A stretch of 38,154 nt of DNA. Source: Faecalibacterium sp. Lineage in GTDB: Bacteria > Bacillota > Clostridia > Oscillospirales > Ruminococcaceae. The position numbers were made by a program, and so were the translations under genes. Position 1 is the stretch's first letter; every line of letters begins with the position of its first letter. The notes below the pieces were generated by a model that searched no databases, was not told where the DNA came from, and saw nothing but the letters and a program-made list of their open reading frames with translations. This document shows, piece by piece, positions 26,197 through 29,285 of the stretch. The stretch lies in the NCBI GenBank assembly GCA_029264955.1, contig JARHYC010000015.1, forward strand, positions 1-38,154, given 5' to 3'.

Positions 26197-27117
26197 TTAC
26201 AGGGCAGCCAGGTATTCTTCGGCATAGTGGGTAGCCACTGCGCCGTCTGCTACAGCGGTCACAACCTGACGCATTGCCTTGGTGCGTACATCGCCTACCG
26301 CATACACACCGGGTACGCTGGTGCGGGTGCTTTCGTCCGCTTTGATGTAGCCTGCCTCGTCCAGCTCCACCTTGCCCTTGACCAGCTCGTTTGCAGGCGC
26401 ACGGCCGATGCTGACAAACACGCCGTCGCAAGCCAGCTCAGAGATTTCACCCGTCACGGTATCCCGCAGCTTTACGCCGGTCAGCTTGTCGTCACGCACC
26501 AGCGCATCAATGGCACTGTTCCAGCGAATCTCCACATTTTCTGCCTGCATCAGCGGGTCGTGATATACCTTGGTTGCACGCAGGGAATCCCGGCGATGCA
26601 CCAGAATCACCTTTGCCGCCACACGGGACAGCAGCAGTGCATCCTCTACAGCGGTGTTGCCGCCGCCAACAACCACAACCGTCTTGCCGCGGTACATCAT
26701 ACCGTCGCAGGCTGCGCAGTAGTGGATCCCGCGTCCTGTCATTTCCTGTTCGCCTTCCACGCCCAGCAGCCGGGGGCTTGCGCCGGTCGCCAGCACAACC
26801 GTACGACCATAGAAAGTGCCTTCGCTGGTTTCTGCGGACTTGACCGGACCATCCAGCTGCAAGGAGAACACCTCTGCCAGCTCGGTCTTTGCGCCGAAAC
26901 GCTCCGCACCCTGCTGCATCTTTTCGCCCAAGGTAAAACCATCCACGCCCTGCTCAAAACCGGGATAGTTGTCAATATCACTGGTCAAAGCCATCTGACC
27001 GCCTGCGGACAGCTTTTCCAGCACGATTGCGTCTCGGCCGGAGCGTGCCGCGTACATTGCTGCGGTGTATCCGCCGGGGCCGCCGCCCACGATGAGCATA
27101 TCATAAATGTGTTCCAT
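26197..27117 (-). CDS. trxB: Thioredoxin reductase
   Basis: FAD enzyme that reduces thioredoxin with NADPH. The FAD motif is GGGPGGYTAAMYAARSG (residues 11-27), the redox site is CAACDG (Cys 134 and 137; many family members have CATCDG) and the NADPH motif is VVVGGGNTAVEDA. The C-terminal FAD motif is GVYAVGDVRTKAMRQVVTAVADGAVA. The 306-residue length is typical. It follows trxA by 20 nt and ends at a terminator, so the two form a trxA-trxB operon. Confidence 0.94.
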   Translation of the reverse strand: MEHIYDMLIVGGGPGGYTAAMYAARSGRDAIVLEKLSAGGQMALTSDIDNYPGFEQGVDGFTLGEKMQQGAERFGAKTELAEVFSLQLDGPVKSAETSEGTFYGRTVVLATGASPRLLGVEGEQEMTGRGIHYCAACDGMMYRGKTVVVVGGGNTAVEDALLLSRVAAKVILVHRRDSLRATKVYHDPLMQAENVEIRWNSAIDALVRDDKLTGVKLRDTVTGEISELACDGVFVSIGRAPANELVKGKVELDEAGYIKADESTRTSVPGVYAVGDVRTKAMRQVVTAVADGAVATHYAEEYLAAL

Positions 27118-27137: not shown

Positions 27138-27458
27138 TTACAGGTACTTTTCGATAAAGGCTTCGATCTTAGCCTTGGACTCCGGTGCAACGATGTGGTC
27201 TACCGGCTCGCCGTCCTTGTACAAAACCAGCGTAGGTACCAGCTCGATTTGATATTCCTTTGCCAGCTCCGGTTCGTCGTCGATGTTCACCTGTGCAATG
27301 GTCATCCGGTCTGCGTACTGCTCTGCCAGCTTGTTGAAAGCGGGCGCAATCCGGCGGCAGTATACGCACCAAGGTGCGGAGTATTCAATCAGCGTAAACT
27401 TTTTTTCCTCGCGGACGATCTGGTTAAACTGTTCGTGATTCATATTCATAGCAGACAT
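27138..27458 (-). CDS. trxA: Thioredoxin with a WCVYC active site
   Basis: A 106-residue cytoplasmic thioredoxin. The active site is PWCVYC (Cys 31 and 34) in place of the usual WCGPC, and the cis-Pro loop is LVPTLVLYKDG. The rest of the fold is complete (NKLAEQYADRMTIAQVNIDDEPELAKEYQI). The Val-Tyr dipeptide should change the redox potential, but which way is not predictable here. AGGAG lies 8 nt before the ATG at 27458. A Crp/Fnr-type operator sits in its promoter. Confidence 0.9.
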   Translation of the reverse strand: MSAMNMNHEQFNQIVREEKKFTLIEYSAPWCVYCRRIAPAFNKLAEQYADRMTIAQVNIDDEPELAKEYQIELVPTLVLYKDGEPVDHIVAPESKAKIEAFIEKYL

Positions 27459-27508: not shown

Positions 27509-27550
27509 ACTATACCGCAAATCCCCTTGCTTTTCTGTGATATTATCACC
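27509..27550 (-). promoter_or_regulatory. trxA promoter with Crp/Fnr-type operator
   Basis: On the minus strand, GGTGA-TAATA-TCACA (27550-27536) contains the perfect inverted repeat GTGAT-ATT-ATCAC (27549-27537, centre 27543). The -10 is TATAGT (27514-27509). The operator centre lies 29 bp upstream of the -10, about -41 from the predicted transcript start, and replaces the -35, which is poor (CAGAAA). This is the class II activator layout. Confidence 0.75.
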
Positions 27551-27562
27551 AATCGATGTGAA

Positions 27563-27591
27563 TTGACAGATTCGCTATTCCCTTTTATACT
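27563..27591 (+). promoter_or_regulatory. Promoter of the Crp/Fnr regulator gene
   Basis: TTGACA (27563-27568) and TATACT (27586-27591) with a 17-bp spacer, a near-consensus housekeeping promoter. A single TGTGA half-site (27557-27561) abuts the -35 and could allow autoregulation. Confidence 0.75.
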
Positions 27592-27631
27592 GATACTTGC
27601 CTACATTCGATATCATTAAGGAGGGTTTGTT

Positions 27632-28285
27632 TTGGAGCTTTCATCCTATTTTCCTGTTTGGGACGACCTGACACCGGACCAGCAGGCTCTTTTGACCCGT
27701 TCCGCTGTACTGCGCACCGCAAAAGCCGGTGAAATCGTACATCACGGTGCTATGGATTGTCTTGGGCTTTTGCTGATTTGCAGCGGTCAGCTGCGGGTAT
27801 ATTTCACCTCAGAGGACGGCCGGGAAATCACCCTGTTCCGCCTGTTCGAACATGACGTGTGTCTGTTCTCCGCCTCCTGCACCATGCGCAGCATCCAGTT
27901 CGATACCACCGTCGCAGTAGAAAAGGACACCCAGTTCTGGGTGGTTCCCCCTGCCATTTTCAAGCAGCTGATGGAGCAATCCCTCCCGGTGTCCAATTAC
28001 ATCAACGAAGTGATCGCCAGCTACTTCTCCGAAGCCATGTGGCTCATGGAGCAAATCATGTGGAAGAGCTTCGACAAGCGCCTTGCCGACTTTTTGCTGG
28101 AAGAAAGCGCACTGGAAGAAAGCCCCCTTTTGAAAATCACCCACGAAAAAATCGCCAACCACATGGGCAGCGCCCGTGAAGTGGTGACCCGTATGCTGCG
28201 CTATTTCCAGAACGAAGGTCTGGTCAAGCTGCATCGCGGCGCCATCGAGATTCTGGACGAAAAGGGGCTGCGCGCCTTGCAGTAA
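27632..28285 (+). CDS. Crp/Fnr-family transcription regulator
   Basis: A 217-residue regulator with an N-terminal cyclic-nucleotide-binding-like sensor domain (residues ~10-125) and a C-terminal winged helix (~150-210). The recognition helix GSAREVVTRMLRYF has Arg-182, Glu-183 and Arg-187, the RE-x3-R spacing by which E. coli CRP reads TGTGA. The sensor domain lacks the FNR N-terminal cysteine cluster but has DVCLFSASC (Cys 77 and 83) and Cys 43 and 50. The start codon is TTG at 27632, with GGAGG 7 nt upstream. It lies between trxA-trxB and the rhodanese gene, whose promoters carry matching operators. Confidence 0.9.
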   Translation: MELSSYFPVWDDLTPDQQALLTRSAVLRTAKAGEIVHHGAMDCLGLLLICSGQLRVYFTSEDGREITLFRLFEHDVCLFSASCTMRSIQFDTTVAVEKDTQFWVVPPAIFKQLMEQSLPVSNYINEVIASYFSEAMWLMEQIMWKSFDKRLADFLLEESALEESPLLKITHEKIANHMGSAREVVTRMLRYFQNEGLVKLHRGAIEILDEKGLRALQ

Positions 28286-28306
28286 GCATTCCCCTTTGCG
28301 TGTGGT

Positions 28307-28696
28307 TTAGTCGGTGACGACTGGTCCGCTCCAACTGTTGATGCCGCCGATTTCCACAAGGTTGGTATAACCCTGCTCTGCCAGCTTTGCAGCAGCCATT
28401 TTGCTGCGGTTGCCGCTGCGGCAGTACACCAAGATTTTCTGCTCCTTGTCGGGCAATGCGTCAATCGGATCGCTGCCGATGGTTTCATTGGGTACATTGA
28501 TTGCGCCGGGGATGTGTCCGCCAGCATATTCTTCCGGAGTGCGCACATCCAGCAGGATAAAGTTGGTTTCCTGCTCCATGACCTGCGCCGCTTCCTCCAT
28601 GGAAATCTGTGCATAATCCGCACCGCTGCAAGCTGCCAAAGACAACGCAGCCAGCATTGCCGCCAACGCCGACAGCACACGTTTGAACTTTTTCAT
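28307..28696 (-). CDS. Rhodanese-domain lipoprotein
   Basis: A 129-residue single-domain rhodanese with a lipoprotein signal: MKKFKRVLSALAAMLAALSL then AAC, with lipidated Cys at 23. The active-site loop is CRSGNRS with Cys 92, the persulfide-carrying residue. The CH2A-like RTPEEYAGGHIPGAINVP is intact, and the C-terminal GGINSW is complete. It should act on the outer face of the membrane, moving or removing sulfane sulfur; the substrate is not known. GGGAG precedes the ATG at 28696. The gene is convergent with the Crp/Fnr gene, 21 nt apart. Confidence 0.88.
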   Translation of the reverse strand: MKKFKRVLSALAAMLAALSLAACSGADYAQISMEEAAQVMEQETNFILLDVRTPEEYAGGHIPGAINVPNETIGSDPIDALPDKEQKILVYCRSGNRSKMAAAKLAEQGYTNLVEIGGINSWSGPVVTD

Positions 28697-28730
28697 AAAA
28701 ATATCTCCCTTATATATAATGTGTATCGGG

Positions 28731-28772
28731 AGTATACCACCCCTTGCCTGACGTATCTGTGACATGGTCACA
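28731..28772 (-). promoter_or_regulatory. Rhodanese promoter with Crp/Fnr-type operator
   Basis: A perfect 15-bp palindrome TGTGAC-CAT-GTCACA (28772-28758, centre 28765) lies 29 bp upstream of the -10 TATACT (28736-28731). This is the same geometry as at trxA: about -41 from the predicted start, with no proper -35 (CAGATA). Both operators read TGTGA or GGTGA, five bases, TCACA. Confidence 0.8.
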
Positions 28773-28910: not shown

Positions 28911-29285
28911 TTATCTTTTTCCAGTCAGGATAAACGCAATCAATTTTTCCACATCGTCGAAATCATCGTAGTCCCCGTTGATGCCTTCCCGATGGTAAAC
29001 TACGCCGTTTTTCTCGTTTTGCTCCAAGCAGTCCAGCAGCTTTTCTTCGCCATACCGCTTCACAAACTGGGTGAACGCATACGGCTTGATTTTCTGCAAA
29101 AGCCCCTTGCGGCAATCTTCCGAGCATTCATAGCAGTGGGCAAAATGCTTTTCTGCACTGCATTTCAAATTTTCGCACACCGCCTTGTCCGCACACTCCC
29201 CCGATTGGCAACCCTTGCAAGTAACATTTTCCGAACACAAACAGCACGCCAGCCCACAGGCAGCAATCCCTAAACTACGTTTCAT
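28911..29285 (-). CDS. DUF3795 cysteine-rich protein
   Basis: A 124-residue protein of the DUF3795 family, common in anaerobic Firmicutes and of unknown function, probably a metal-binding module. Cysteines are spaced as in the family: CGLACCLCSENVTCKGCQSGEC, then CENLKC and HCYECSEDC. The C-terminal half is a charged helical part. GAGGAG precedes the ATG at 29285. It ends 30 nt before a terminator. Confidence 0.85.
   Translation of the reverse strand: MKRSLGIAACGLACCLCSENVTCKGCQSGECADKAVCENLKCSAEKHFAHCYECSEDCRKGLLQKIKPYAFTQFVKRYGEEKLLDCLEQNEKNGVVYHREGINGDYDDFDDVEKLIAFILTGKR

Follow-up and report, generated by a model that had tools for sequence, protein, structure and literature searches.

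The locus described here lies in a 38,154-nucleotide stretch of a Faecalibacterium sp. genome (contig JARHYC010000015.1), and this whole stretch is called the window below. A gene for a Crp/Fnr-family regulator is flanked on one side by trxA and trxB and on the other by a rhodanese lipoprotein gene, and a palindromic operator stands before each of these neighbors. The features are as follows.

26197..27117, minus strand: trxB, thioredoxin-disulfide reductase (TIGR01292, 364 bits, above cut-off)
27138..27458, minus strand: trxA, thioredoxin with the active site CVYC (Pfam PF00085, E 1.8e-29)
27509..27514, minus strand: -10 hexamer of trxA, TATAGT, its first base 29 nt from the centre of operator 1
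27536..27550, centre 27543, no strand: operator 1, TGTGATATTATCACC, one mismatch to a perfect palindrome
27563..27591, plus strand: sigma-A-type promoter of the regulator gene, TTGACA-17-TATACT
27632..28285, plus strand: Crp/Fnr-family regulator, TTG start, 217 aa (PF13545, PF00027; 3dv8, E 3e-86)
28307..28696, minus strand: rhodanese-domain lipoprotein (PF00581, E 1.4e-20)
28731..28736, minus strand: -10 hexamer of the rhodanese gene, TATACT, its first base 29 nt from the centre of operator 2
28758..28772, centre 28765, no strand: operator 2, TGTGACATGGTCACA, an exact palindrome preceding the rhodanese gene

Operator 1 is placed between the divergent trxA (minus strand) and regulator (plus strand) genes. 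The original prediction was that operators centred at 27543 (trxA) and 28765 (rhodanese gene) each lie 29 bp from a -10 hexamer, at about -41. Both operators are present, and the distance is exact at both genes. Because the first base of the -10 follows the operator centre by 29 nt, the centre falls at about -41 from the predicted start. The regulator gene, which shares operator 1, has a TTGAC-/TATAAT-like promoter located 32-68 nt from the operator in ten loci (43 in the window). With this full TTGACA/TATACT promoter and the variable operator distance, the idea of an operator serving chiefly the regulator gene was rejected. Since the regulator promoter is normal and stands at a variable distance from the shared operator, the phased promoter is that of trxA. 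As read from the sequence, the rhodanese lipoprotein has a signal peptide with the lipobox LAAC and the active-site loop CRSGNRS. Beside its gene, a cysteine-rich open frame of 124 residues (window 28911-29285) gave no Pfam or NCBIfam match. The active site of TrxA is CVYC rather than the usual CGPC, which is found in the second thioredoxin of the genome (L165:3455-3760).

The regulator belongs to the Crp/Fnr superfamily by both of its domains (PF00027, E 2.4e-9; PF13545, E 6.4e-17; both above the cut-off). In its recognition helix, R182-E183-x3-R187 aligns with R180, E181 and R185 of E. coli CRP, so the CRP-type RE-x3-R spacing claimed for this helix is confirmed. R182 and E183 are found in 110 of 110 aligned regulators and R187 in 108 (Lys in the other two). 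Three cysteines, C43, C77 and C83, are invariant in all 110. In a second set of 25 regulators, 20 of which were chosen for divergence, R182, E183 and R187 are kept in all 25, and C43, C77 and C83 in 24, 23 and 24, respectively; the losses occur in L274, the weakest member, which lacks all three, and in L267, which lacks C77. The regulator was also aligned with E. coli CRP and FNR from MG1655 (CRP residues in the usual numbering, with the first Met uncounted). The positions of the cAMP-contacting residues E72, R82 and S83 of CRP are occupied by S80, F90 and D91 in the regulator, and C77 and C83 fall within the region of the cAMP-binding cassette of CRP. The three invariant cysteines would fit a thiol, persulfide or metal-cluster sensor. 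This three-cysteine subfamily is widespread in Clostridia. Within the genus of the window, the regulators of G081 and G171 are only 44-45% identical to that of the window, while loci of other genera (L012, L013) reach 66-68%; replacement, transfer or paralogy may account for this.

The operator motif is not enriched in the window when up to two mismatches are allowed (17 matches against an expectation of 15.2, with at least 17 in 36 of 100 shuffles). In the whole genome, the motif has 37 sites with at most one mismatch and 3 exact ones, where its reversed control has 28 and 1. Because mismatch counts in the window and the genome are near chance, the significance of the operators rests on their phasing and on their conservation in relatives. 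For the latter, 109 related loci were compared, made up of the best 80 of 272 relatives and 29 more (the best 30 matches, one of them the window itself); at least one genome supplies two of the loci (L070 and L087). The 712,977 bases of these loci hold 25 exact TGTGA-N5-TCACA sites. Exact sites at other spacings numbered 0, 2 and 0 for 2-4 bases and 1, 1, 0, 0, 0 and 0 for 6-11 bases, and each of 29 other letter orders of the half-site gave at most six. With one mismatch allowed, 95 sites were found at N5 against 5-21 at other spacings, with one letter-order control (TGATG halves) reaching 71. At least one site with no more than one mismatch is present in 70 of the 109 loci, and 39 have none. 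Thirty of 47 sites near the frame starts of thioredoxin, thioredoxin reductase or rhodanese genes lie 58-82 nt before the start; the remaining distances span -58 to 172, in part an effect of extending every open frame to its earliest possible start. Where trxAB and the regulator gene are divergent, the intergenic site recurs and is exact in L030, L032, L035, L057, L072 and L111. In some relatives the partner gene beside the regulator changes and the operator is kept, so that it stands between the regulator gene and rubrerythrin (L099, L100), desulfoferrodoxin (L018) or ccdA (L106), not trxA. The original prediction was that related Clostridia would carry orthologues of the regulator, with TGTGA-N5-TCACA at -41 of trxA and rhodanese genes. 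Many of them do have the regulator, and the site is found at -41 of thioredoxin and rhodanese genes.

The phasing was assessed in the direction of the target gene. Any hexamer that matched TATAAT in at least five of six positions was scored as a -10; by background alone, such a hexamer is expected at 0.4% of positions. In the thioredoxin-type cluster of 45 sites, which takes in a few thioredoxin reductases, 34 sites have a -10 at +29 (33 of the 44 distinct ones) and five more at +28. The same position is occupied at all three rubrerythrin sites, at two of three rhodanese sites, at four of six before short-chain dehydrogenase genes and at two of three before ferredoxin genes, at neither of the two ccdA sites in relatives and at none of the 20 sites read towards the regulator gene. 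For searches across genomes, operator and -10 were joined in a composite pattern (operator core, 22 bases, TATAMT), which is strict and misses even the window's own trxA promoter (TATAGT). Counts at the free positions of the 92 distinct composite sites are 87 for Y at -43, 91 for R at -39, 77 for G at -33, 71 for A at -32 and 63 for G at -14. The positions of the operator left unconstrained by the pattern are thus palindromic too (Y at -43, R at -39), and these preferences together define an operator TGTGAY-N3-RTCACA, fused to a remnant of the -35 and often followed by an extended -10. The claim that these promoters have no good -35 was correct, with the refinement that a GA remnant (-33 and -32) is kept. 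In class II Crp-dependent promoters, the operator is centred near -41.5 and overlaps a degenerate -35, and the -10 is good. The promoters described here have an operator near -41 from the predicted starts, a degenerate -35 and a good -10.

The composite pattern tracks the regulator, which was scored as present in family genomes at E <=1e-20. In 197 genomes of the family, it was found in 57 of the 88 that carry the regulator (among them the window's genome) and in 2 of the 109 that do not (Fisher p 3e-24; this and the other co-occurrence p-values are indicative only, because related genomes are non-independent draws). The assemblies of the two exceptions are just 72% and 79% complete. The reversed control was found in 3 of the 197 genomes, and the exact composite is missing in 31 of the 88 with the regulator. 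The bare exact 15-bp site, without phasing, is present in 126 of the 197 and was dropped as a marker because it is too unspecific. In 291 genomes of the class, the composite is present in 33 of 70 with the regulator and 15 of 221 without it (p 3e-13). Strong homologues (about 150 bits or more) are accompanied by it in 31 of 50 genomes, and weaker ones in 2 of 20. Most of the 15 regulator-less composites may be background, since the reversed control occurs in 10 of the 291 class genomes. The class and family draws share four genomes; when the two regulator carriers among them are removed, 31 of 68 remain. Sites near trxB were found at 10 of 30 loci (25 genomes) with the regulator and 0 of 26 loci (21 genomes) without it (p 0.001), in a comparison of hand-picked genomes (30 of the 88 and 30 of the 109, all at least 91% complete) whose trxB homologues differ in relatedness between the two groups. 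The 30 loci with the regulator came from 31 matches; 20 have no site, and a -10 at 29 accompanies 5 of the 10 sites. The absence of the phased layout from 107 of 109 family and 206 of 221 class genomes that lack the regulator supports the original prediction of a Crp/Fnr regulator at class II sites on trxAB and the rhodanese gene. Phased sites of a similar kind (GTGACTAAGTCAC type) were seen in G443, which has six, and in G264, G363, G384 and G405 of family f44, in which no regulator was detected; they perhaps serve another Crp/Fnr protein that uses this spacing, or a relative of the regulator that has diverged.

The regulon extends beyond the window. In the window's genome, a site with a -10 at +29 precedes rubrerythrin, which is followed by a ferritin-like gene. 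A second site (centre L165:3377) precedes thioredoxin 2 and then desulfoferrodoxin, with the -10 TAGAAT at +29. The latter site is shared with a divergent flavodiiron gene, on whose side no -10 was seen at +29; in relatives, a -10 at +27 accompanies two of three flavodiiron sites, and it is uncertain whether the flavodiiron protein is a target in the window's genome. A one-mismatch site stands before ccdA-tlpA with its -10 (CATACT) at +30, and these genes are probably regulon targets in this genome. Thirty composite loci, one from the window's genome, were laid out with 32 sites. Thioredoxin (recognised by similarity to trxA) or thioredoxin reductase comes first at 16 of them, rubrerythrin at 3, a small membrane protein with cysteines at 3, desulfoferrodoxin at 2 and a gene that is ferredoxin-like by motif at 2; a CcdA-redoxin fusion, a short-chain dehydrogenase and a CoA-binding domain protein each come first once, and 3 first genes were unrecognised. 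In several loci, thioredoxin is followed by a CoA-disulfide reductase-rhodanese fusion or a single rhodanese. A thiol or sulfane-sulfur response joining the cytoplasm and the cell surface had been proposed for this locus. The link between the two compartments is strengthened by the ccdA-tlpA site. The response is wider than thiols or sulfane sulfur, because the regulon also includes rubrerythrin, desulfoferrodoxin and ferredoxin-like genes.

The computed operator, its phasing and conservation, its co-occurrence with the regulator, the content of the regulon and the invariant cysteines point to the three-cysteine Crp/Fnr regulator as a class II activator that responds to thiol or redox state and turns on disulfide, sulfur and oxygen defence, a reading to which we give a probability of about 0.77. 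Binding, activation and signal are predictions from sequence data, and the mechanism would be as follows. A dimer of the regulator would bind the 15-bp operator TGTGAY-N3-RTCACA. Placed at -41, the operator would replace most of the -35, leaving the GA remnant, and work with the often-extended -10, so that RNA polymerase would be recruited. Disulfide, persulfide or oxygen stress may alter the state of C43, C77 and C83 and thereby switch DNA binding. The predicted targets are trxA-trxB, the rhodanese lipoprotein, rubrerythrin, the second thioredoxin with desulfoferrodoxin and probably ccdA-tlpA. Of their products, TrxB and TrxA would restore cytoplasmic thiols, and rubrerythrin and desulfoferrodoxin would clear peroxide and superoxide. 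CcdA could pass electrons across the membrane, with TlpA and perhaps also the surface rhodanese as acceptors.

A serious rival concerns the signal. The cysteines may hold an iron-sulfur cluster, or heme, in which case the regulator would sense oxygen or NO and not thiol-disulfide or persulfide changes. The three invariant cysteines with their C77-x5-C83 spacing and the superoxide and peroxide reductases of the regulon are in favor of this view, whereas thioredoxin or thioredoxin reductase as the first gene at half of the composite sites (16 of 32) argues against it. FNR binds its [4Fe-4S] cluster through cysteines 20, 23, 29 and 122. Also against the rival, the N-terminal cysteine cluster of FNR is absent from the regulator, a Trp is aligned with C122, and C43, C77 and C83 are aligned with L, V and G of FNR. 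PgRsp of P. gingivalis, which was modelled on 3DV8, binds heme, a point in favor of the rival; a point against it is that the heme spectrum of PgRsp was left unchanged by single substitutions of Cys76, Met78 and His85 (PMC6955866). Taken together, a cluster or heme sensor is possible and somewhat doubtful.

It is also conceivable that the regulator represses, blocking RNA polymerase until it is oxidised, and that the -41 phasing arises only because the site overlaps the -35. The operator does overlap the -35 region, and Crp/Fnr proteins can activate or repress (PMC545781). However, a repressor could bind at other positions and leave a good -35 in place, as is seen at the regulator's own promoter. 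Here the phasing is exact to the base pair, at the position classical for activators, with a degenerate -35 and a good -10. We therefore regard repression as improbable. Two further HTH_Crp_2 matches above the family cut-off are present in the genome, at C24 and C11, and another Crp/Fnr protein, such as the one at C24, might bind the operators; this is very unlikely because of the co-occurrence of composite and regulator (57 of 88 against 2 of 109), and many sites are gathered around the regulator gene. Mismatch-tolerant counts near expectation in the window and the genome would suit a chance resemblance of both operators, an explanation that is already contradicted by the base-pair phasing and the conservation in relatives and is hardly credible.

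The preferred reading, that of a thiol- or redox-sensing class II activator, was compared with known systems. E. coli CRP resembles the regulator in its RE-x3-R residues, TGTGA half-sites and, at class II promoters, an operator centred at about -41. In contrast, the regulator has N5 and not N6 spacing (25 exact sites against one), has lost the cAMP contacts and carries three cysteines in its sensory domain. Its score against the whole-protein NCBIfam model of CRP is 34.6, against a cut-off of 266. The nearest solved relative is 3DV8 of Eubacterium rectale (216 residues aligned, E 3e-86), which in the alignment has all three cysteines as well as the R/E/R residues of the recognition helix; no role for it was found in the literature searched. 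In PMC6955866, 3DV8 is a Crp homologue that served as the modelling template for PgRsp of Porphyromonas gingivalis. By its description, PgRsp resembles the regulator in a role in redox and oxidative stress, a 3DV8-based model and a Cys76, and is set apart by heme binding (PMC6955866).

HcpR is a Crp/Fnr regulator of anaerobes (Desulfovibrio, Clostridium and others) deduced by comparative genomics (PMC545781). It has TGTGA-type half-sites like the regulator, and one candidate site precedes an arylsulfatase-thioredoxin-thioredoxin reductase cluster in D. desulfuricans. Unlike the N5 operator, its consensus is TTGTGA-N6-TCACAA, which the paper equates with the E. coli CRP consensus; some species have TTTGACC-N2-GGTCAAA instead. 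The core targets of HcpR are hcp and frdX (PMC545781). The hcp gene was not recognised among the target genes of the regulator that were examined. Set beside the consensus given in PMC545781, N5 spacing appears unusual for the Crp/Fnr superfamily as a whole. No earlier description of the regulon was found in full-text searches of open-access papers. A redox regulon under a putative class II activator of the Crp/Fnr type, with N5 spacing in the operator and three cysteines in the sensory domain, thus appears to be new, with HcpR and PgRsp as the nearest described regulators found.

To our knowledge, little is understood of the way strict gut anaerobes perceive stress from oxygen and on thiols. 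The regulator, operator, promoter layout and target list are now joined and directly testable, and they suggest how oxygen-sensitive gut Clostridia could sense redox stress. If the reading is true, the N5 spacing and the exchange of cAMP for cysteines show a Crp/Fnr scaffold turned to thiol or redox sensing, and a surface rhodanese together with CcdA-TlpA in one regulon suggests joint control of the disulfide balance inside and outside the cell. A broader proposal is tentative, a little short of even odds: the regulator might be the main redox switch of many gut Clostridia, with a three-cysteine (persulfide, disulfide or Fe-S) sensor at the place of cAMP in CRP, a membrane-crossing chain NADPH-TrxB-TrxA-CcdA-TlpA/surface rhodanese joined by superoxide and peroxide reductases, and an odd-length N5 operator fused with the -35 at a fixed base pair.

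Two groups of genes were also seen directly after composite promoters. Small membrane proteins with a motif like CSTGSCAITSSP are encoded at L234:1573-1788, L235:107-322 and L233:1583-1804, the last with a tlpA-like gene downstream; the two of the three that were tested had no Pfam family match. In two genera (L238:682-1472 and L253:1512-2302), the promoter is followed by genes for a ferredoxin-like protein and for a membrane protein that matches Fer4_5 weakly, possibly a novel electron-transfer pair.
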